A DNA stretch of 64,000 nt from Bacteroidales bacterium (GTDB lineage Bacteria; Bacteroidota; Bacteroidia; Bacteroidales; VadinHA17). The DNA lies in contig JAFGLJ010000035.1 in NCBI GenBank assembly GCA_016928075.1, positions 1 to 64,000 on the forward strand. The letters run 5' to 3'. A model generated the notes under the pieces. That model was not told where the DNA came from, ran no database searches, and was given only the letters and a program-made list of their open reading frames with translations. Both the position numbers and the translations under genes were made by a program. Positions 4,881-55,726 of this stretch are shown piece by piece (the first letter of the stretch is position 1; each line of letters opens with the position of its first letter).

Positions 4881-6249
4881 CCTTATCGGAGGATGAGAGA
4901 TCCTTATGGATCCGCCTGGCAGTGGGTGTAGTTGACAGCCCCCCCTTGCATGTGCAACGGTATTTCAGGTTCATATCGTCACCCACTTCTTTCATTGCTT
5001 TGATAACCTCATCCAGCGGTATTACGTGATCGTATCCCGCGATGGTCATATTGGCTGCGGCCAGGGCATTGAGGGCGGCCATGATGTTTTTCCCGAGGCA
5101 TGGCACCTCCACCCTGTCGGCCACGGGGTCGCATATCATGCCGAGGGTATTCTGCAGTGCCATGGATGCAGCATTGAGTGACATCTGACCGTCGCCTCCC
5201 ATCAGTTCAACAAGTGCAGCGGCAGCCATACCTGAGGCCGATCCGCATTCGTACTGGCAGCCTCCTTCTTCAGCTGCAAAACCGCATTCATTGGCGATGA
5301 ATATTCCGACCATACCCGCAGCCAGCAATGCTTTCATTATTTCATTTTCTGTCCTGCAAGCTGCTTCGGCAGAAGGAAGGAGCACACCCGGCAGTGTTCC
5401 GCAGGAACCCGCCGTGGGGGCAGCCACTATCAGGCCCATTGCGCTCTTGACTTCCATAACCGCAGTTACTGACCGGATAATTGTGTTGGCCAGGCTGGCA
5501 GGTATAAGCTGTCCTTTTTCAGGCGCCTGCGAGAAAAGGTGTGACTGCCGTGGCAGCAGCCGGTCTTCATAGCTGGTTCCTGCCAGACCATCATTTATTG
5601 CTTCCCTCATTATAAACATATATGAACGTGCAAGGATCAGGGCATCTTCCTCCGATACATCGCCTATGGCAGTTTCATACCGGACTGCATAATCTGAAAG
5701 AGCCCCCCCTTTTTGTTCCAGGAGTTTTACCAGCTCATTAATGTTCTTAAAAGGCAACACCGGGTCTCTTTTTAACCTGACCGGCATCAGGGGGTTTATA
5801 TAGTCCAGGTCGTCGTCAACAGGTTCATTGTTGAGCCTGGTGAGCCTGACGTTGCCACCGCCAGTGGATATAGCCATAAAGCTTACTTCCTTACCCGAAG
5901 CTCCTTTCAGATATGTATTATAGATATTGGGGTGGGCATCACTGAATTTTTCTATCCTGTACTCTATTTTCAATCCCTTCCGGCTGCACAGTTCTTCAGC
6001 TTTCAGCAGATCTTTATCGGCGATATCCATCCCGAGCAGACCGGCGGCGAGTCCCATGGCGGATCCCTGTCCGCGGTAGGTTGTAGCCACGGATCCCCGG
6101 GGATCGAAAGTAAAACGGGCATACACGGGTTCTTCCGAGAGCAACCTGCGCCCGAGGCGCCCTATCCTCACGGCAGCTGCAGTATGCGAACTGCTTGGAC
6201 CTCTCATTACAGGACCCAGAATATTGTTGAAGATTGAAGGAGGATGCAT
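4870..6249 (-). CDS. sdaA: L-serine dehydratase (single-chain, iron-sulfur)
   Basis: A 459-residue L-serine ammonia-lyase with fused beta and alpha domains. It converts L-serine to pyruvate and ammonia. Visible family features are the N-terminal GPVMRGPSSSHTAAAVRIG, the central SAMGLIVAAPTAGSCGTLPG, and cysteines in ANECGFAAEEGGCQYECGSA and MICDPVADRVEVPCLGKN, which would bind the oxygen-sensitive [4Fe-4S] cluster. The length is normal. The gene stands alone, convergent with the sulfatase gene. Its last residues (KEVE) and stop codon are encoded by an intergenic repeat, so the original C-terminus may have been shorter or different. An oxygen-labile enzyme of this kind fits an anaerobic or microaerobic life. 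Confidence 0.95.
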   Translation of the reverse strand: MHPPSIFNNILGPVMRGPSSSHTAAAVRIGRLGRRLLSEEPVYARFTFDPRGSVATTYRGQGSAMGLAAGLLGMDIADKDLLKAEELCSRKGLKIEYRIEKFSDAHPNIYNTYLKGASGKEVSFMAISTGGGNVRLTRLNNEPVDDDLDYINPLMPVRLKRDPVLPFKNINELVKLLEQKGGALSDYAVRYETAIGDVSEEDALILARSYMFIMREAINDGLAGTSYEDRLLPRQSHLFSQAPEKGQLIPASLANTIIRSVTAVMEVKSAMGLIVAAPTAGSCGTLPGVLLPSAEAACRTENEIMKALLAAGMVGIFIANECGFAAEEGGCQYECGSASGMAAAALVELMGGDGQMSLNAASMALQNTLGMICDPVADRVEVPCLGKNIMAALNALAAANMTIAGYDHVIPLDEVIKAMKEVGDDMNLKYRCTCKGGLSTTPTARRIHKDLSSSDKEVE

Positions 6250-6293
6250 GGCTGTTGTTTTTGGTTAATGGGTAAAGATAGTAAGTATTTTGC

Positions 6294-6360
6294 AGGGAGC
6301 AGGGGGCCAGCCTTCGTCCCGAGTTTTCGGGACTTCGGCTGGTAAAACAGGGAGCAGGGG
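6294..6360. repeat. GGAGCAG repeat interrupted by a hairpin
   Basis: Two short blocks of GCAGGGAGCAGGGG in the same orientation flank a 36-nt near-perfect hairpin at 6307-6342, whose arms are CCAGCCTTCGTCCCGA and TCGGGACTTCGGCTGG. The same heptamer family is found at 22193, 35172, 55092 and, inverted, 55656. Confidence 0.65.
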
Positions 6361-6366
6361 AAAGAT

Positions 6367-6490
6367 GAAGTATTAATTATGAATTATGAATTGAGCAGCA
6401 AGGGATTATCAATAAACTTACTACCAGATGATTAAAGGTAGTGGATAAAGGGCGGGTTAATGGGTAAAAAAAGTTGAGAGTGAGTTGAAT
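6367..6490. repeat. Dispersed AT-rich repeat copy 2, followed by GTTGAGAGTGAG repeat
   Basis: 6367-6450 matches 4679-4765 in the same orientation (TATTAATTATGAATTATGAA, GGATTATCAATAAACTTACT, then TGGATAAAG). 6471-6490 (AGTTGAGAGTGAGTTGAATA) is inverted relative to 4853-4880. The serine dehydratase gene therefore has related repeats on both sides. Confidence 0.55.
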
Positions 6491-6498
6491 AGAAAATG

Positions 6499-6555
6499 TT
6501 TGAGAGTTTGAACGGTTTGAACGGTTTGATCATTCTTTCTATTAATCAAACGGTT
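6499..6555. repeat. TTTGAACGG repeat with inverted half
   Basis: TTTGAGAGTTTGAACGG and two further TTTGAACGG-like copies are followed by AATCAAACGGTT in the opposite sense. It is related to 3220-3288 and ends 11 nt beyond the 3' end of the tRNA gene on its coding strand. Confidence 0.55.
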
Positions 6556-6565
6556 AGGGTGGGCA

Positions 6566-6643
6566 TGGTGGGACATACTGGATTCGAACCAGTGACTTCT
6601 ACCCTGTCAAGGTAGCGCTCTAAACCAACTGAGCTAATGCCCC
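6566..6643 (-). tRNA. tRNA-Val (anticodon GAC)
   Basis: The minus strand folds as a full cloverleaf. The acceptor stem is GGGGCAT with ATGTCCC (one G-T pair), the D arm is GCTCAGTTGGTTTAGAGC, and the anticodon stem CTACC/GGTAG encloses TTGACAG, giving anticodon GAC for valine GUC/GUU codons. The T arm contains GGTTCGAATCC. The discriminator A and the terminal CCA are encoded (TGG at 6566-6568 on the plus strand). The gene is 78 nt. Confidence 0.96.
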
Positions 6644-6650
6644 AAGAAAT

Positions 6651-6738
6651 TGTTTCAAGTTTGCCTTCGGCGAGCTCGGCTTCGCCTCGGTTCAGGTTTC
6701 AAGTTTCAAGTTCCGGGTTCCGCGTTCCGGGTTTCGTG
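6651..6738. repeat. TTTCAAG repeat interrupted by a hairpin
   Basis: A TGTTTCAAGTTT block is followed by an imperfect GC-rich hairpin (CCTTCGGCGAGCTCGGCTTC region, 6663-6690) and then GGTTTCAAGTTTCAAGTTCC and further 7-nt copies grading into GTTCCGG. It sits between the tRNA 5' end and the stop of the NUDIX gene, 19 nt from that stop. Confidence 0.55.
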
Positions 6739-6756
6739 GTAAAAATAGTAATTTTT

Positions 6757-7266
6757 TCAATAAAGGGTATCTTTCAGGACATGGAGATATTCATATTCGA
6801 AGTTAGGGGTGAAGAGGCCTGTGCCGAGGTTTTCTTCTATCTCTTCCCTGCTCCAGAATCGTCCGTCATCAACTTCTGACGGATCGGTTACGGGGGAATG
6901 ATCATTCCGTGTAATGTATGAATATACCAGTTCCCGCTCCCTCTCTGATTTCCAGATATAATTTTTGATAAATTCATAACTGAAGTTTTTCATTCGCGTT
7001 TCTTCCCATGCTTCACGCAGCAATGCCTGTTCCTGGGTTTCCCCGGGATCCACATGGCCCCCCACGGAGGTATCCCACCTGCCGGGCTGAATATCTTTTT
7101 GCAAGGATCTCTTCTGCAGAAAGATATGCCCTTTGCCGTTAATAATATGAAGATGTATAACAGGATGGAGGAGCATGCTTTTACCGTCGTGACATTTGCT
7201 CCTGGGTGCCAGCCTGATCAGCTCTCCCTTCTCATTTACTACTGGAATCATTTCTTCCGGATGCAT
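6757..7266 (-). CDS. NUDIX hydrolase
   Basis: A 169-residue cytoplasmic NUDIX protein. The Nudix box is intact: GGHVDPGETQEQALLREAWE followed by ET, giving G-x5-E-x7-R-E-x2-E-E, which binds the catalytic divalent metal. The N-terminus (EEMIPVVNEKGELIRLAPRSKCH) and HIFLQKRS resemble the isopentenyl-diphosphate isomerase/YfcD-like subgroup, which acts on diphosphates linked to another moiety. The actual substrate is not predictable. It is a single gene between repeat blocks. Confidence 0.88.
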   Translation of the reverse strand: MHPEEMIPVVNEKGELIRLAPRSKCHDGKSMLLHPVIHLHIINGKGHIFLQKRSLQKDIQPGRWDTSVGGHVDPGETQEQALLREAWEETRMKNFSYEFIKNYIWKSERERELVYSYITRNDHSPVTDPSEVDDGRFWSREEIEENLGTGLFTPNFEYEYLHVLKDTLY

Positions 7267-7288
7267 AGTGAGGTTGTTTATATTTTCA

Positions 7289-7477
7289 GTAAAAGTAAAA
7301 AGGAAAAAGGAAAAAGGAGAAAGGAGAAAGAGGGCCGAGCGTTTATAATTTGCCCGGTGGGCAAATTTAGCGATGAGCCAGATAGAGCAGAGGTTATCTA
7401 AGGAAAAAGTAAAAAGTAAAAAGTAAAAAGTTGAGGCGTAGCCGAAACCCCGGCTGAACGCAGTGAACGCCGGGGGA
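7289..7477. repeat. AAAAGTA/AAAGGAG repeat blocks with hairpin inserts
   Basis: This 218-nt gene-free interval contains AAAAGTAAAAAGGAAAAAGG and AAGGAGAAAG blocks at 7289-7330, a palindrome AATTTGCCCGGTGGGCAAATTT at about 7347-7368, an AAAAAGTAAAAAGTAAAAAG block at 7403-7430, and a GC hairpin CCCCGGC...GCCGGGG at about 7449-7475. No reading frame with recognisable content is present. Confidence 0.55.
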
Positions 7478-7484
7478 AAAACTA

Positions 7485-7922
7485 TTAAAGGCTAAGGCTG
7501 AGGCTAAGGCTAAGGAGAGTAGTCAAGGTATTACCTAATTTTGTTGGCATTTTGTGTTTCTTTGTGGTTTCAATTGTTTTTATCATTGAATCCAATTCGA
7601 GAATAACATCACCGTATCCATTTACCAGTTCATTCTTTTCATGATTTGTAATATAACCTAAGGCTTCTGATGCAAGGCTTTGATTAATAATCTCATAACA
7701 GCTGCCCCTGGCTATTTTGTAAAACCTTGTTTTATCAAATGATTCATATCTGCCAAAACCTTCTGCTGTATTGTTAGTAACAGAGTGAGCAGCTCTTCGC
7801 ATTTCCGAAACCAGACAGAATTTTTCTGCAGCAGGATATTTTTTGGTTAACCTGTATACCAATAAAAGAAGATAAAATGCCTTCTTCCAAACCGACATCT
7901 CAGTGAAATCTTTATATACCAT
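7485..7922 (-). CDS. Four-helix-bundle protein (S23 / 23S-rRNA IVS protein family), copy 1
   Basis: A 145-residue helical protein of the S23/IVS-encoded protein family, related in fold to the Avd accessory protein of diversity-generating retroelements. The family signature is present: YKDFTEMSVWKKAFYL at the start and EMRRAAHSVTNNTAEGFGRY in the middle (compare LRR-x3-S-x3-NIAEG in copies 2 and 3). The C-terminal LSLSLSLSL tail is encoded entirely by the GGCTAA/GGCTGA repeat at 7489-7517 and is probably not part of the original protein. The gene lies inside a pair of inverted repeat arms (7489-7517 and 8033-8063). The molecular function of free-standing members is unknown; pentameric nucleic-acid-binding bundles are known from relatives. 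Confidence 0.88.
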   Translation of the reverse strand: MVYKDFTEMSVWKKAFYLLLLVYRLTKKYPAAEKFCLVSEMRRAAHSVTNNTAEGFGRYESFDKTRFYKIARGSCYEIINQSLASEALGYITNHEKNELVNGYGDVILELDSMIKTIETTKKHKMPTKLGNTLTTLLSLSLSLSL

Positions 7923-8063
7923 TTTATTCTATGTTAATAGATAATTGAATTAAGAAATGCAGCGAAAACCATTAAAGGTTATTATATAAAAATAAGTAAA
8001 ATATCTTAATTAATATAAATAATCTCACCAGTCCTTAGCCTTAGCCTCAGCCTCAGCCTCAAC
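7489..8063. mobile_element. Putative IVS-like element: four-helix-bundle gene between inverted GGCTAA/GGCTGA arms
   Basis: The left arm 7489-7517 and right arm 8033-8063 are inverted. Read inward, both contain GGCTGAGGCTAAGGCTAAGG, giving a perfect 20-bp inverted repeat about 520 nt apart. The only gene between them is four-helix-bundle copy 1. The arms abut the stop codons of that gene and of hisIE (3 nt away). Calling it a mobile element is an inference: no target-site duplication or transposase is seen. A transcript of the whole interval could close the arms into a long stem, as in 23S rRNA intervening sequences. Confidence 0.4.
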
Positions 8064-8065
8064 AA

Positions 8066-8665
8066 TCATATTTTATGTCGGGCTTTAAGGGCGGCGATGA
8101 TATCCCTGAAGGCGAAGCCTTTTGCATGGAGAAGGACGAGGAAATGGTACACCAGGTCGGCTGCCTCTTCGAGGAAAAGATCATTCCTGCCGTTGACAGC
8201 CTCAAGGATGAGCTCCACAGATTCCTCCCCGACCTTCTGTGATATTTTAGTCACTCCCTTATCAAATAAGCGTGCGGTATAAGATGTACCGGGATCGGCC
8301 TCTCTCCGTGATTCAATAACAGTCTCAAGGTAGGTTATGAACTCAAGGTTGTCTTTCTGGTTGACCTCAGCCCAGCAGGTGTCGTCACCAGTATGGCAGA
8401 CCGGTCCGTCAGGTATTGCCTTTGCAAGCAGGGTATCGCCATCACAGTCTGCTTTTATATCCACCAGCCTGAGATAATTGCCCGAGGTTTCACCCTTGGT
8501 CCACAGTTCTTTCCTTGAGCGGCTGAAGAAAGTAAGTTTTTTAGTTTCTTTTGTCAGCCGCAGGGCATCCTCGTTCATATATGCCAGCATAAGTACCTTT
8601 GACGTTGTGGCATCCTGCACTATCACAGGTACAAGCCCGCCATTCTTATTGAAATCAATATTCAT
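8066..8665 (-). CDS. hisIE: Bifunctional phosphoribosyl-AMP cyclohydrolase / phosphoribosyl-ATP pyrophosphatase
   Basis: This 199-residue protein performs steps 2 and 3 of histidine synthesis. Residues about 1-105 are HisI: MLAYMNEDALRLT, SRSRKELWTKGETSGN, and the metal-binding cysteines in KADCDGDTLL and CHTGDDTCW. Residues about 112-199 are HisE, an all-alpha MazG-like fold: ARLFDKGVTKISQKVGEESVE and EEAADLVYHFLVLL with the acidic residues that bind magnesium. It is the last gene of the his operon. The start is the ATG at 8663-8665. Its stop lies 3 nt from the right arm of the neighbouring repeat element. Confidence 0.96.
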   Translation of the reverse strand: MNIDFNKNGGLVPVIVQDATTSKVLMLAYMNEDALRLTKETKKLTFFSRSRKELWTKGETSGNYLRLVDIKADCDGDTLLAKAIPDGPVCHTGDDTCWAEVNQKDNLEFITYLETVIESRREADPGTSYTARLFDKGVTKISQKVGEESVELILEAVNGRNDLFLEEAADLVYHFLVLLHAKGFAFRDIIAALKARHKI

Positions 8666-8718
8666 TTTATTGTATGTTTCTCTTACCTAATCATAAATAT
8701 TAAACAGCAAAAATAATA

Positions 8719-10188
8719 TTATGTTCTTACTATTATACCATTCTGAGCCAGATAGTTTTTAACCTCAGCGATACTTATATCACCATAGTGGAAAAGTCCT
8801 GCAGCCAGTGCTGCATCTGCCCTGCCCTTTTCAAAGGCATCTTTAAAATGGGACAGTTTGCCTGCTCCCCCGGAGGCTATCACAGGTACATCAACAAGCT
8901 CGTCAATAGCAGCCAGCGCGTCATTTGCGTATCCATTACGGGTGCCATCATGATCCATCGAGGTAAAGAGCACTTCCCCTGCTCCCCTTTTCACTCCTTC
9001 CCTCACCCATTCGAACAGGTCGATTCCGGCAGGTATCCTGCCACCGTTGAGATATACTTTCCATCCACCATTTTCATAGCGGGCGTCAACTGCGAGAACG
9101 ATACACTGGCTGCCAAATTTACCTGCCATACTGTTTATGATACCGGGATTGCGCACTGCAGCCGAGTTGACCGATACCTTATCGGCCCCGTTTGCCAGCA
9201 TGGCATTCACATCGTCAAGGCCGGAAATACCGCCACCAACGGTAAAAGGGATGTTCACAGCTTCAGCAACTTTTCTCACCAGCGCAGACAATGTTTTTCT
9301 TTTCTCGTGTGTGGCGGTGATATCCAGAAAAACCAGTTCATCGGCACCCTCATCGGAATAGCGTTTGGCGAGCTCAACAGGATCGCCGGCATCGCGCAGT
9401 CCCACAAATTTCACTCCCTTTACCACCCTTCCATCCCTGACATCAAGACAGGGTATTATCCTGCGCGCCAGTGTTTCAAGGGGGTAAGGGTTCAGTGGTA
9501 TCCTCGACTCATAAAATGCCTTACCGCTGATAACATTTTTTATACCTGCATTATCCAGTTCCCTTAGATCATCAAGGCTGCCCAGTCCGCCACTGGCTAT
9601 GAGCTCCATCCCGGGATACCTGTCAAGTATATCTTTATACATTTTCACTGATGGCCCTTCCATGGTACCGTCGCTTTTGATATCAGTACATATGACTTTC
9701 TTTATACCTTTTTCCACGTAGTAATTGAGAAAATCAAACAGGCCTGTTGATGATGTTTCGAGCCATCCGCCGATAGCTATTTTGCCATTCTTCACATCAG
9801 CTCCCAGGATGATTTTCTCCGGGCCATACTTATTAAGCCATCCCAGAAAAACACCAGGCTTTTTCACCGCCACGGAACCTCCCGTAACCATTGCGGCCCC
9901 CGCCCTGAAGACTCTTTCAATATCGGCATCTGTTTTCACTCCACCCCCGTAATCGATGATAAGCCCCGTTGATCTGCGAATATTTTCCATGATATCAAGG
10001 TTGATTATCCTGCCCTGCCTGGCACCGTCAAGATCGACCAGGTGAAGCCTTTTGAATCCTGCTGCTTCAAACTTCCCTGCCATATCAACAGGATCAGTGT
10101 TGTATTCGGTAATGCTGTCAAAGTCACCCCCTGTCAGGCGGACACATTTGCCACCGATTATATCTATTGCCGGTATTATCTCTATCAT
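8719..10188 (-). CDS. hisAF: Fused HisA-HisF: ProFAR isomerase joined to the cyclase subunit of IGP synthase
   Basis: One 489-residue frame carries two consecutive half-barrel-duplicated (beta/alpha)8 enzymes. Residues 1 to about 238 are HisA, with [14 protein letters not shown] (catalytic Asp9), [15 protein letters not shown] (Asp131) and [11 protein letters not shown]. Residues about 239-489 are HisF, with [20 protein letters not shown] (catalytic Asp249), LAVDAR (Asp368), and the phosphate-binding TVGGGIS and VIASGGAG. There is essentially no linker: the segment [14 protein letters not shown] leads straight into the HisF first strand. Both active sites look complete. It follows hisH with a 4-nt ATGA overlap, and HisH is HisF's glutaminase partner. 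Separate hisA and hisF genes are the norm in Bacteroidota, so this fusion is unusual. Confidence 0.95.
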
Positions 10189-35286: not shown

Positions 35287-35356
35287 TTTAAGTGGTTTAA
35301 GTGGTTCAGGGGAGCGTGTAAGAATAAACTTTTAAACTCTTAAACCACTTAAACCC
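35287..35356. repeat. Gene-less inverted pair of TTTAAGTGG repeats
   Basis: TTTAAGTGGTTTAAGTGGTT (from 35287) and AACTCTTAAACCACTTAAAC (to 35354) form an inverted pair with a spacer of about 20 nt. It ends 5 nt from the stop of the fucosidase gene. It looks like the short form of the arms that flank the sulfatase at 3156 and 4812. Confidence 0.6.
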
Positions 35357-45392: not shown

Positions 45393-45440
45393 ATGACGGT
45401 TTTTAAGGTTAATATGTAAATGTACGAAAAAGAATTAATT

Positions 45441-46035
45441 AACGACGAAAGACTAACGACTAACGACAAACGGGCATATAATGTAATCTTAACAGCTAAA
45501 GAGGGGGGTGTTTGGGAAATTATTTCTAAATTTAAGATGGAAATAATATGTCTCACTAAACTGCATTAAAAATGAGTAATTTTAAAAATCTTCGCGTTTG
45601 GATACGCGCTAAAAATCTTGCTAAGAAAATATATGAACTTACCAGGCAGGAACCTCTGACCGGTGATTTTAGTTTCAGAGATCAATTACGCAGATCAGCC
45701 GTAAGCATTGCCAGTAATATTGCTGAAGGAGATGAATCCGGTACCAATAAGATGGCCGTTAAGTACTTTTATACAGCAAAAGGTTCCTCTGCTGAACTTT
45801 ATACTCAACTGGTTATTGCCTTTGAGATAGGCTATATTAAAGAGGATATTCTTAATGAAATGCTGGAAGAATCTGAAGCAATATCAGCTATGTTATATAA
45901 ACTTATCTCAGTCAGAGCATCAGAAGAATAATCCAAATCCATGACTTAGACTATTGATCAACACTTAAGCCCTATAATTCCAGACTTTTTCTATTATCCC
46001 TTTAACCGTTGATCGTTAGTCGTTGATCGTTCGAC
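45441..46035. mobile_element. Putative IVS-like element: four-helix-bundle gene between inverted ACGACTA arms
   Basis: The left arm 45441-45472 (AACGACGAAAGACTAACGAC and on) and right arm 46006-46035 (CGTTGATCGTTAGTCGTTGA and on) are inverted. Their best shared core is AACGACTAACGA, with imperfect matches over about 30 nt. Four-helix-bundle copy 2 is the only gene inside. The right arm ends 3 nt from the stop of the membrane-protein gene. The element interpretation is an inference from three parallel cases in this window. Confidence 0.35.
45572..45931 (+). CDS. Four-helix-bundle protein (S23 / IVS protein family), copy 2
   Basis: A 119-residue helical protein, the usual size for the family. 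Conserved features are FKNLRVWIRAKNLAKKIYELT at the start and QLRRSAVSIASNIAEGDESG in the middle, followed by FYTAKGSSAELYTQLVIAFEIGYI. It is divergent from its left neighbour and is the only one of the three copies on the plus strand. Like the other two it stands between inverted copies of a short tandem repeat. Its function is unknown; relatives are encoded in 23S rRNA intervening sequences. Confidence 0.92.
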   Translation: MSNFKNLRVWIRAKNLAKKIYELTRQEPLTGDFSFRDQLRRSAVSIASNIAEGDESGTNKMAVKYFYTAKGSSAELYTQLVIAFEIGYIKEDILNEMLEESEAISAMLYKLISVRASEE

Positions 46036-54288: not shown

Positions 54289-55092
54289 ATGGAACTGCTG
54301 GCTATAATAACCTGGGATGTAAATCCTGAAATATTCAGGATCGGTAATTTTGCACCAAGGTGGTATGGTGTACTTTTTGCCTCCGGCTTTCTTTTCGGTT
54401 ATCTGATTTTCAAGAGGATATTCAGAAACGAAGGTTTAAAGGTCGAAATGCTTGACAAGCTTACCATATACATGGCTATCGGGGTTATCGTAGGAGCCCG
54501 CCTCGGTCACTGCCTTTTTTATGAACCATCGTACTACCTGAGCAACCCGTTGGAGATACTTAAGATCTGGCGTGGTGGACTGGCCAGTCACGGAGCAGCA
54601 ATCGTTGTACCATTAGTTCTATGGCTCTGGTCAAGGAAGGAAAAGAAACCATTTATATGGATACTTGACCGTATAGTTATCGTGGTCGCCCTTGGTGGTG
54701 CCATGATACGGCTGGGCAATCTTATGAATTCCGAAATATACGGAGTTGAAACAACTCTTCCCTGGGGTTTTGTCTTCCTCCGTAACGGAGAAACAGTGCC
54801 CAAGCATCCCACCCAGATATATGAAGCACTGGCTTATTTCATTACATTCATAATACTTTACCGAATATACTGGAGAAAGAAAGGGGAATTTATCAACGGC
54901 TTACTCTTCAGTCTTTTTCTTATTCTTGTTTTTGTTTTCAGGTTTTTCGTTGAATTCGTAAAGGAAGACCAGGTGGATTTTGAGGCAACCATGACTCTCA
55001 ACATGGGCCAGTGGCTGAGTGTACCTTTTATATTGCTGGGAGTTGTTGTCTTAGTGATAAGTCTCAGACGACACAGGATGCAGGCTACCTAG
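54289..55092 (+). CDS. lgt: Prolipoprotein diacylglyceryl transferase
   Basis: A 267-residue inner-membrane enzyme that transfers diacylglycerol from phosphatidylglycerol to the lipobox Cys of prolipoproteins, the first step for the many lipoproteins encoded here. I start at the ATG 54289; the longer frame begins at a TTG that lies in the promoter. Signature elements are GVLFASGFLFGYLIFK, IGARLGHCLFYEP-like (GVIVGARLGHCLFY), WRGGLASHGAAI (catalytic His region), RLGNLMNSEIYGVETTLPWGFVF and HPTQIYEALAYF. Seven hydrophobic segments are visible. Its stop codon TAG touches the GGAGCAG array. Confidence 0.95.
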   Translation: MELLAIITWDVNPEIFRIGNFAPRWYGVLFASGFLFGYLIFKRIFRNEGLKVEMLDKLTIYMAIGVIVGARLGHCLFYEPSYYLSNPLEILKIWRGGLASHGAAIVVPLVLWLWSRKEKKPFIWILDRIVIVVALGGAMIRLGNLMNSEIYGVETTLPWGFVFLRNGETVPKHPTQIYEALAYFITFIILYRIYWRKKGEFINGLLFSLFLILVFVFRFFVEFVKEDQVDFEATMTLNMGQWLSVPFILLGVVVLVISLRRHRMQAT

Positions 55093-55194
55093 GAGCAGGG
55101 AGCACGGAGCAGGGAGCAGGGAGCAGGGAGCAGGGAGCAGGGAGCAGGGAGCAGGGAGCAGGGAGCAGGGAGCAGGGAGCAGGGAGCACGGAGT
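55092..55194. repeat. GGAGCAG heptamer array
   Basis: About 14.5 copies of a 7-nt unit over 103 nt, almost perfect apart from two GGAGCAC variants at 55101-55107 and near 55187. It is the longest block of this family in the window, lies exactly between the lgt stop and the stop of four-helix-bundle copy 3, and has no spacers. Replication slippage could change its length easily. Confidence 0.9.
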
Positions 55195-55199
55195 TTCTT

Positions 55200-55556
55200 T
55201 CAATTAAGTGTCTTTCTGAAAGATGTGATTCGCCTGCTTAAGTAAGCAAGATCAGCCAATAATTTTGTTTTCTCTTTCTCATCAATTATAGATCTCCTGT
55301 GAAATATTATAATCATATTTGCACATTCAAAAACTGACCTTCTGGAGATGTTAAGAAACTGACCAAATTCTTTTTTAGAAAAAGAACCTGATCCTTCGGT
55401 AATGTTATTTGATATTGATAATCCAGAGCTTCTTAATTGTTCAGCAAATTTATAAAGCTTTTTGCTATCGGCTAGTTCTGCAATATCAAATAGCCTGTCC
55501 CCTAGATCAATGGCATCACGCCATATCTCAAGATCTTCAAATCGAAAATGTTTCAT
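55200..55556 (-). CDS. Four-helix-bundle protein (S23 / IVS protein family), copy 3
   Basis: A 118-residue helical protein: FRFEDLEIWRDAIDLGDRLFD at the start and QLRSSGLSISNNITEGSGSF as the family core, followed by FLNISRRSVFECANMIIIFHRR. It is diverged from copies 1 and 2, so these are not recent local duplications. Its stop is 5 nt from the end of the GGAGCAG array. Function unknown. Confidence 0.92.
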   Translation of the reverse strand: MKHFRFEDLEIWRDAIDLGDRLFDIAELADSKKLYKFAEQLRSSGLSISNNITEGSGSFSKKEFGQFLNISRRSVFECANMIIIFHRRSIIDEKEKTKLLADLAYLSRRITSFRKTLN

Positions 55557-55726
55557 TTTTACAGCTTTTAATGTTATGCAACGAGAAATTATCTTAAAAG
55601 AAAGATAAGAAAATTATCAATATTACTTTTGAAACAGCAACATTTTTATTTAATCTCGCTCCCTGTCTCTTACTCCCTGCTCCCTGCTCCCTGCCCCCTG
55701 CTATCACGGAGTGAATAATTGAAGGT

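Follow-up and report, generated by a model that had tools for sequence, protein, structure and literature searches.

Four-helix-bundle genes bounded by inverted tandem-repeat arms in protein-gene spacers: units resembling 23S rRNA intervening sequences

A small four-helix-bundle gene of the S23 type lies inside an inverted repeat of tandem units in the spacer between hisIE and a NUDIX gene of a Bacteroidales bacterium (VadinHA17 lineage; assembly GCA_016928075.1, contig JAFGLJ010000035.1, positions 1 to 64,000; this whole stretch of 64,000 nt is denoted the window). The same arrangement of gene and arms, with other repeat motifs, was found at many loci of the protein family PF05635, and the arms-plus-four-helix unit, which resides in protein-gene spacers of several phyla, resembles 23S rRNA intervening sequences (IVSs) in its anatomy. 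Because this anatomy equals that of the 23S rRNA IVS, we are inclined, with modest confidence, to read the interval as a representative of an IVS-like element that is widespread in mRNA spacers, an S23/IVP four-helix gene bounded by inverted tandem-repeat arms that would act through an RNA stem. The original prediction, made from the letters of the window, had described the interval as a possible free-living IVS-like element; its observation holds and generalises, and its interpretation is borne out in part.

The element between hisIE and the NUDIX gene

The two arms comprise 28 nt each, are 96% complementary and are separated by 515 nt. The element and its neighbours are arranged as follows:

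8032..8059, minus strand: 5' arm (in gene sense), G-rich, four GGCTRA units plus ends
7489..7516, minus strand: 3' arm, 27 of its 28 positions complementary to the 5' arm
7485..7922, minus strand: four-helix-bundle gene (S23 / 23S_rRNA_IVP), 145 aa, last codons inside the 3' arm
8066..8665, minus strand: hisIE (PRA-CH + PRA-PH), upstream, co-directional
6757..7266, minus strand: NUDIX gene, downstream, co-directional

The perfect 20-bp inverted repeat reported earlier around the four-helix gene is real and forms part of a longer structure: a single mismatch between the arms leaves a perfect run of 22, which includes the 20-mer. The open reading frame (ORF) at 7485-7922 on the minus strand matches PF05635 (E 4.4e-26) and TIGR02436 (E 7.2e-25). 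Its tail is indeed written in the repeat, as had been noticed before, with the C-terminus LLSLSLSLSL encoded by the 3' arm and the stop codon just beyond the arm; at the other end, the 5' arm lies 6 nt from the hisIE stop codon. For the minus-strand RNA of 7485-8063, the predicted minimum free energy and centroid folds both have the arms paired (-155 kcal/mol, z -5.98, none of 100 shuffles as low). The unit harbors no transposase, the ORF that the arms enclose having PF05635 as its sole Pfam match, and a search for a Y1 (RAYT) transposase, limited to the unit and not extended to the rest of the genome, gave none. An Rfam scan of window positions 6000-9500 yielded one tRNA and nothing else, placing the element outside 23S rRNA. 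The repeat unit of these arms has 6 nt, the class consisting mostly of heptamers. GGCTAA/GGCTGA, formerly put forward as the motif of the element, is present in these arms but represents one instance of the class, the motif changing at nearly every locus.

The interval was also compared with relatives, where a precise empty site had been suggested as a check. The gene and the GGCTRA arms are absent in all five relatives whose sequence behind hisIE was read (5/5). At 55-78% protein identity, however, these genomes are too diverged to define a base-exact empty site, and the hisIE-NUDIX adjacency was not recovered in them. At 7327-7430 the window also contains a dispersed repeat ending in AAGTAAA heptads, which recurs in the own and related genomes at up to 91% identity.

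Recurrence at PF05635 loci of several phyla

Arms were assessed by a flank score, for which the 5' flank was aligned with the reverse-complemented 3' flank and the best alignment taken, and were called inverted at a score of at least 14. The assembly to which the window belongs (2.76 Mb, 76 contigs, 75.7% complete) contains 11 PF05635 matches, 10 of them with usable flanks on both sides. The inverted flank scores range from 11 to 34 and reach the cut-off at eight of these ten loci, which carry six different motifs, so that the genome-wide recurrence of the bracketed structure, to which the original prediction had pointed, is observed. Cross-locus flank scores in this genome are mostly 7-13 and higher between copies of a common motif.

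Including the own genome, PF05635 matches occur in 32 of 40 genomes, among the matches listed. The higher-scoring part of these (29 loci and 60 regions) gave 110 distinct genes; sufficient flanking sequence was available for 96, a few of which are halves of broken genes (e.g. L032, L062). Inverted arms were present at 55 of the 96 loci and direct ones at 14, while the cut-off was reached by 1.4% (inverted) and 1.0% (direct) of cross-locus pairs. Loci from named genomes in several phyla, of which the best 80 of 505 were taken, gave inverted arms in 59 cases and direct arms in 10, with cross-locus values of 0-4%; the inverted ones are distributed over Bacteroidota (21/29), Patescibacteria (19/27), Chlorobiota/Ignavibacteria (2/2), other phyla (5/9) and a remainder (12/13). 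Random orientation of the arms around such genes, raised earlier as an outcome that would speak against the element, is thus not what either set displays. Plasmids and viral contigs are included in the distribution: all 12 plasmid loci examined (10 cyanobacterial, one Riemerella, one Azospirillum; 12 of 28 records, some of them close relatives) reach the cut-off, as do six of seven four-helix loci on viral contigs, one of the six with arms distant from the gene.

The arrangement exceeds chance. Among 282 non-four-helix control genes from the window and 20 related stretches, seven pass the flank cut-off, and among the 62 genes of 90-200 aa only one does; the flank windows of the controls, like those of the plasmid loci, are slightly unlike those of the 96-locus set. 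The proposal of a free-living, IVS-like gene-in-a-stem unit is supported. An rRNA location was considered for low-scoring loci and rejected, no rRNA having been found at 20 of them. At L024 / L159 a four-helix gene is flanked by GTTGAGAATGAG arrays in direct, not inverted, orientation.

The window itself holds further members of this landscape:

45440..46031, plus strand: second element, with a TAACGAC-type arm (45440-45472), PF05635 gene (45572-45931) and second arm (46007-46031); weak, flank score 13
55092..55702, minus strand: third element, with a GGAGCAG-type arm (55092-55193), PF05635 gene (55200-55556, minus) and second arm (55673-55702); flank score 27
35287..35353, no strand assigned: hairpin of the GTTTAAGTG family lacking a gene, with a 37-nt loop

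The long arm of the third element (55092-55193) abuts the stop codon of a gene which, from its protein sequence, we take to be lgt-like, and the GTTTAAGTG family of the hairpin also arms a PF05635 gene at L011. This hairpin was the one site returned by a scan of the window for gene-less hairpins (score of at least 14, loops up to a few hundred nt). GGCTRA arrays are common in the own genome, some of them lacking a four-helix gene, and convergent GGCTRA pairs without such a gene were present at 5 of 15 GGCTRA loci (L148, L150, L155, L156, L157), always with the G-rich array first. As the window scan gave a single site, the abundance of gene-less hairpins is derived from weaker matches seen by eye and from these five loci.

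Arms and gene belong together and vary as units at shared spacers

Arm statistics refer to 127 elements, chosen by an arm score of at least 13 out of 185 genes. The median element length is 491 nt. Among 88 arms whose period is clear, it is 7 or 14 in 62; a further 39 arms have none. The ends of the arms are not sharply defined. In the 5' arm, G exceeds C in 112 elements and falls below it in 9; the 3' arm begins a median of 15 nt past the stop codon, which in 27 of the 127 lies inside the arm.

Arms and gene belong together as one unit, and the arm motif is specific to each lineage. Arm likeness tracks protein likeness (Mantel r 0.198, 0 of 500 permutations), with arms alike in three of six pairs at a protein identity of at least 85%, in three of eleven at 70-85% and in two of 285 at 55-70%. 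In five GGCTRA-armed relatives, which come from four genomes, the alignment runs inward from the 5' arm, and with the exception of L061/L066 there is no outside likeness at the E-value used; the alignments of L061/L066 and L039/L066 begin at the first arm base. L009 and L010, both from the own genome, are alike over 563 positions, starting inside the 5' arm and finishing where the 3' arm ends, and the alignment of L016 with L017 starts within the 5' arm, with the 5' arm itself excluded.

At one spacer, units differ, decay or are absent across related species. The best-sampled case is a spacer of the Flavobacterium group, presumably flanked by thiolase and acyl-CoA dehydrogenase (acd) genes (names read off protein ends), which was read in 41 of 121 genomes, a biased sample of best matches plus 20 picked by gaps, with G108 left out. 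A four-helix gene is present in twenty of these 41 spacers. Eight encode one protein type (among them G109, which looks broken, its longest ORF having 31 aa) and twelve another with three sub-lineages; in a spacer-specific scan, 16 of the 20 have inverted arms at a score of at least 14, the remaining four reaching 10-13. The acd genes of G040 and G068 share 96% identity, yet their four-helix genes and arms differ, and G123 and G127, likewise 96% identical in acd, encode proteins of 59% identity within AGAATAG-like and AGAAGCA-like arms, respectively. That both arms had changed in situ in an orthologous element was refuted by the protein comparison, which shows whole-unit swaps. Three of the other 21 spacers are short, 42-64 bp, and hairpin-free (G070, G082, G129), G155 retains both extremities of a four-helix gene, its start and its end, within arms, G089 retains a tail, and G142 has a gene-less hairpin. 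In other species, the thiolase-acd spacer contains inverted-repeat families of the CCCCCTAACCCCC and GTCATTTCGACGAAGG types (L302, L303, L315; L283, L309, L308, L317, L294, L311).

A comparable case is the cas6-cas4 spacer of cyanobacteria, in which Anabaena sp. 90 has the element and Dolichospermum UHCC 0315A, 98-99% identical on both sides, has another inverted-repeat insert. The latter (L372 1733-2005) is of the TTGGGTTG...CAACCCAA type, and the corresponding spacer of Pseudanabaena ABRG5-3 (L375 1960-1990) holds a short direct ATTACGA heptad array and no four-helix gene. Heptad-armed four-helix genes were seen at L360 1489-1857, L365 1495-1854 and L366 1489-1845; in Anabaena sp. 90 and Pseudanabaena galeata they separate cas6 from cas4, in Picosynechococcus PCC 7003 cas10 from cmr3. 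Owing to their inverted heptad arms, these three copies look like inserted units, not cas components, and the four-helix genes in those CRISPR operons are probably passengers.

The elements occupy spacers between genes, as operon genes do, with the 5' arm usually a few nt from the upstream stop codon. Among 120 elements flanked by a gene at either end, 83 run in the direction of both neighbours and 97 in that of the upstream gene, whose stop codon lies a median of 9 nt from the 5' arm in these 97. The four-helix protein is under strong purifying selection, with ratios of non-synonymous to synonymous substitution rates (dN/dS) of 0-0.13 in 16 pairs, some dS values being near saturation.

Mechanism, rival explanations and known systems

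According to the favoured IVS-like reading, the element would be read from the transcript of the host operon. In this transcript its arms are predicted to form a stem whose loop contains the gene. By analogy with 23S rRNA IVSs, RNase III may cut the stem and release the message of the small protein. The S23-type protein, presumably a pentamer, could bind its own arms, as RNA or as DNA, and its lineage might depend on it to persist or to spread.

Several observations weigh against this reading. Mismatches between arms show no excess of the G:U type over the A:C type (93 vs 88 and 44 vs 39 in two counts), and hence give no indication that an RNA stem is under selection. In the two sets, 41 of the 96 loci and 21 of the best 80 lie below the cut-off, some of them being inverted by eye and others direct (e.g. 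L024). L061 and L066 stay alike for about 80 nt past the 3' arm. Within genomes, one of 259 pairs among the fetched copies reaches at least 90% amino acid identity, and with near-identical copies lacking inside one genome, recent transposition is not seen. Ordinary genes have like orientations (co-directional with both neighbours in 169/263, with the upstream gene in 211/263), so the position behind a stop codon may be mere operon-gene spacing, and an insertion preference drawn from the orientation bias was dropped for the same reason.

The symmetry of the arm mismatches would suit a DNA element, in which the arms are terminal inverted repeats acting as DNA (cruciform or snap-back), the protein serves as an accessory recruiting host recombination and the RNA stem is incidental. 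This alternative, which we judge unlikely while giving it some weight, also agrees with homology between related copies ending at the arms, with the exchange of whole units in a single spacer and with the gene-less hairpins and the internally deleted copy, which resemble derivatives of miniature inverted-repeat transposable elements (MITEs). It is opposed by the lack of a transposase or recombinase in the unit, by arm sequences that vary among nearly all lineages, unlike transposon ends, and by the lack of multicopy bursts. The variety of inverted repeats found in one place, i.e. other families in the same Flavobacterium spacer of other species and another inverted repeat in the cas6-cas4 spacer of Dolichospermum, would be consistent with a scenario in which operon spacers gain slippage-made heptad hairpins useful to the host in stabilising or separating messages, the gene being a passenger or a hairpin-binding regulator. 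The low dN/dS and the Xanthomonas heptads, which are described near stop codons, in convergent pairs and, in the passages concerned, with no gene link (PMC4692102), are in line with such a host-useful hairpin. Since it is the protein lineage, and not the site, with which the arm motif travels, and hairpin-free short spacers exist at the same place, this explanation is held to be quite improbable.

A part in a retroelement of the diversity-generating type, in which the protein would be an Avd relative partnered by a trans-acting reverse transcriptase and the inverted arms would arise from snap-back cDNA, is very improbable. The four-helix profile matches 2gsc (E 6.9e-27), and Avd (4DWL) and 2GSC are homologous in the account given in PMC10053308, but a template or variable repeat was not seen, and six genomes with 5-11 PF05635 matches, the own one included, gave no RVT_1 match (genomes incomplete, 74-98% where stated). 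A trans-acting reverse transcriptase as a requirement was rejected as far as these incomplete genomes show. Arrays and gene-less hairpins are abundant, and some genes could land by chance between two inverted arrays; this is scarcely credible given the controls (7/282 ordinary and 1/62 short genes vs 55/96), the consistent G-rich polarity of the 5' arm and the recurrence in the small genomes of Patescibacteria.

A broader proposal is made tentatively and with some doubt. The orphan heptads of cyanobacteria, xanthomonads and Bacteroidota might largely be ends or gene-less derivatives of one class of mobile elements, in which every lineage of the S23-type protein has a matching arm motif; ribosomal IVSs would then be a side branch settled in rRNA, and 'cas-associated' IVP genes would be copies landed in cas operons. 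If true, a common identity would unite the S23/IVP genes located away from rRNA, the heptameric repeats of intergenic regions and the IVP genes classed as CRISPR-associated, and the role of S23 proteins would become testable in ordinary mRNA, apart from ribosomes. It would also call for caution in assigning function by neighbourhood, as a gene that lodges in operon spacers mimics a component of many systems. In open-licence PubMed Central, a scope that leaves subscription journals mostly outside, no paper tying S23/IVP genes to tandem-repeat arms was found; further nearby literature includes, in the part available, PMC11637426.

Among known systems, the closest is the 23S rRNA IVS, exemplified by that of Coxiella, for which the relevant passages give an S23 ORF, a length of 428-444 nt, a 28-bp terminal stem and excision by RNase III (PMC4990558). 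An S23-family ORF, compact size, a terminal stem of about 28 bp and sporadic occurrence are common to both; unlike the IVS, the element resides in protein-gene spacers and not in rRNA, its arms are tandem repeats with a lineage-own motif, and release by RNase III is for the element only presumed. Further heptameric simple repeats are the short tandemly repeated repetitive (STRR) sequences of cyanobacteria. Heptads described elsewhere include GGGAATC in Xanthomonas and GGGGA(C/T)T in Nostoc, with 70 convergent pairs in X. campestris in the portion of the report concerned (PMC4692102), and the TAACTGA heptads of Beggiatoaceae, from a similar excerpt (PMC4679880). They share with the element arms the heptad unit, the intergenic location, a G-rich sense strand in the vicinity of stop codons and the occurrence of convergent pairs, but in those excerpts the authors tie them to no gene family, whereas here heptads end a four-helix unit.

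Repetitive extragenic palindromic elements (REP/REPIN) with their RAYT, and MITEs, likewise have inverted repeats near stop codons and gene-bearing as well as gene-less forms with the same motif; the present element differs in that it lacks a Y1 transposase and has a tandem-repeat motif that changes with the lineage. Avd of diversity-generating retroelements belongs to the same four-helix-bundle superfamily in the partial account cited above (PMC10053308), and the fold family of the four-helix protein is that of 2gsc, XCC0516; an adjacent reverse transcriptase, a template and a variable repeat distinguish Avd systems from the element. Lastly, 23S_rRNA_IVP genes are listed as cas-associated, with 18 IVP genes in cas loci in the relevant part of one survey (PMC3936711) and a further mention, also in part, in PMC10910872, and these are, as far as those excerpts go, members of the same Pfam family situated between cas genes.
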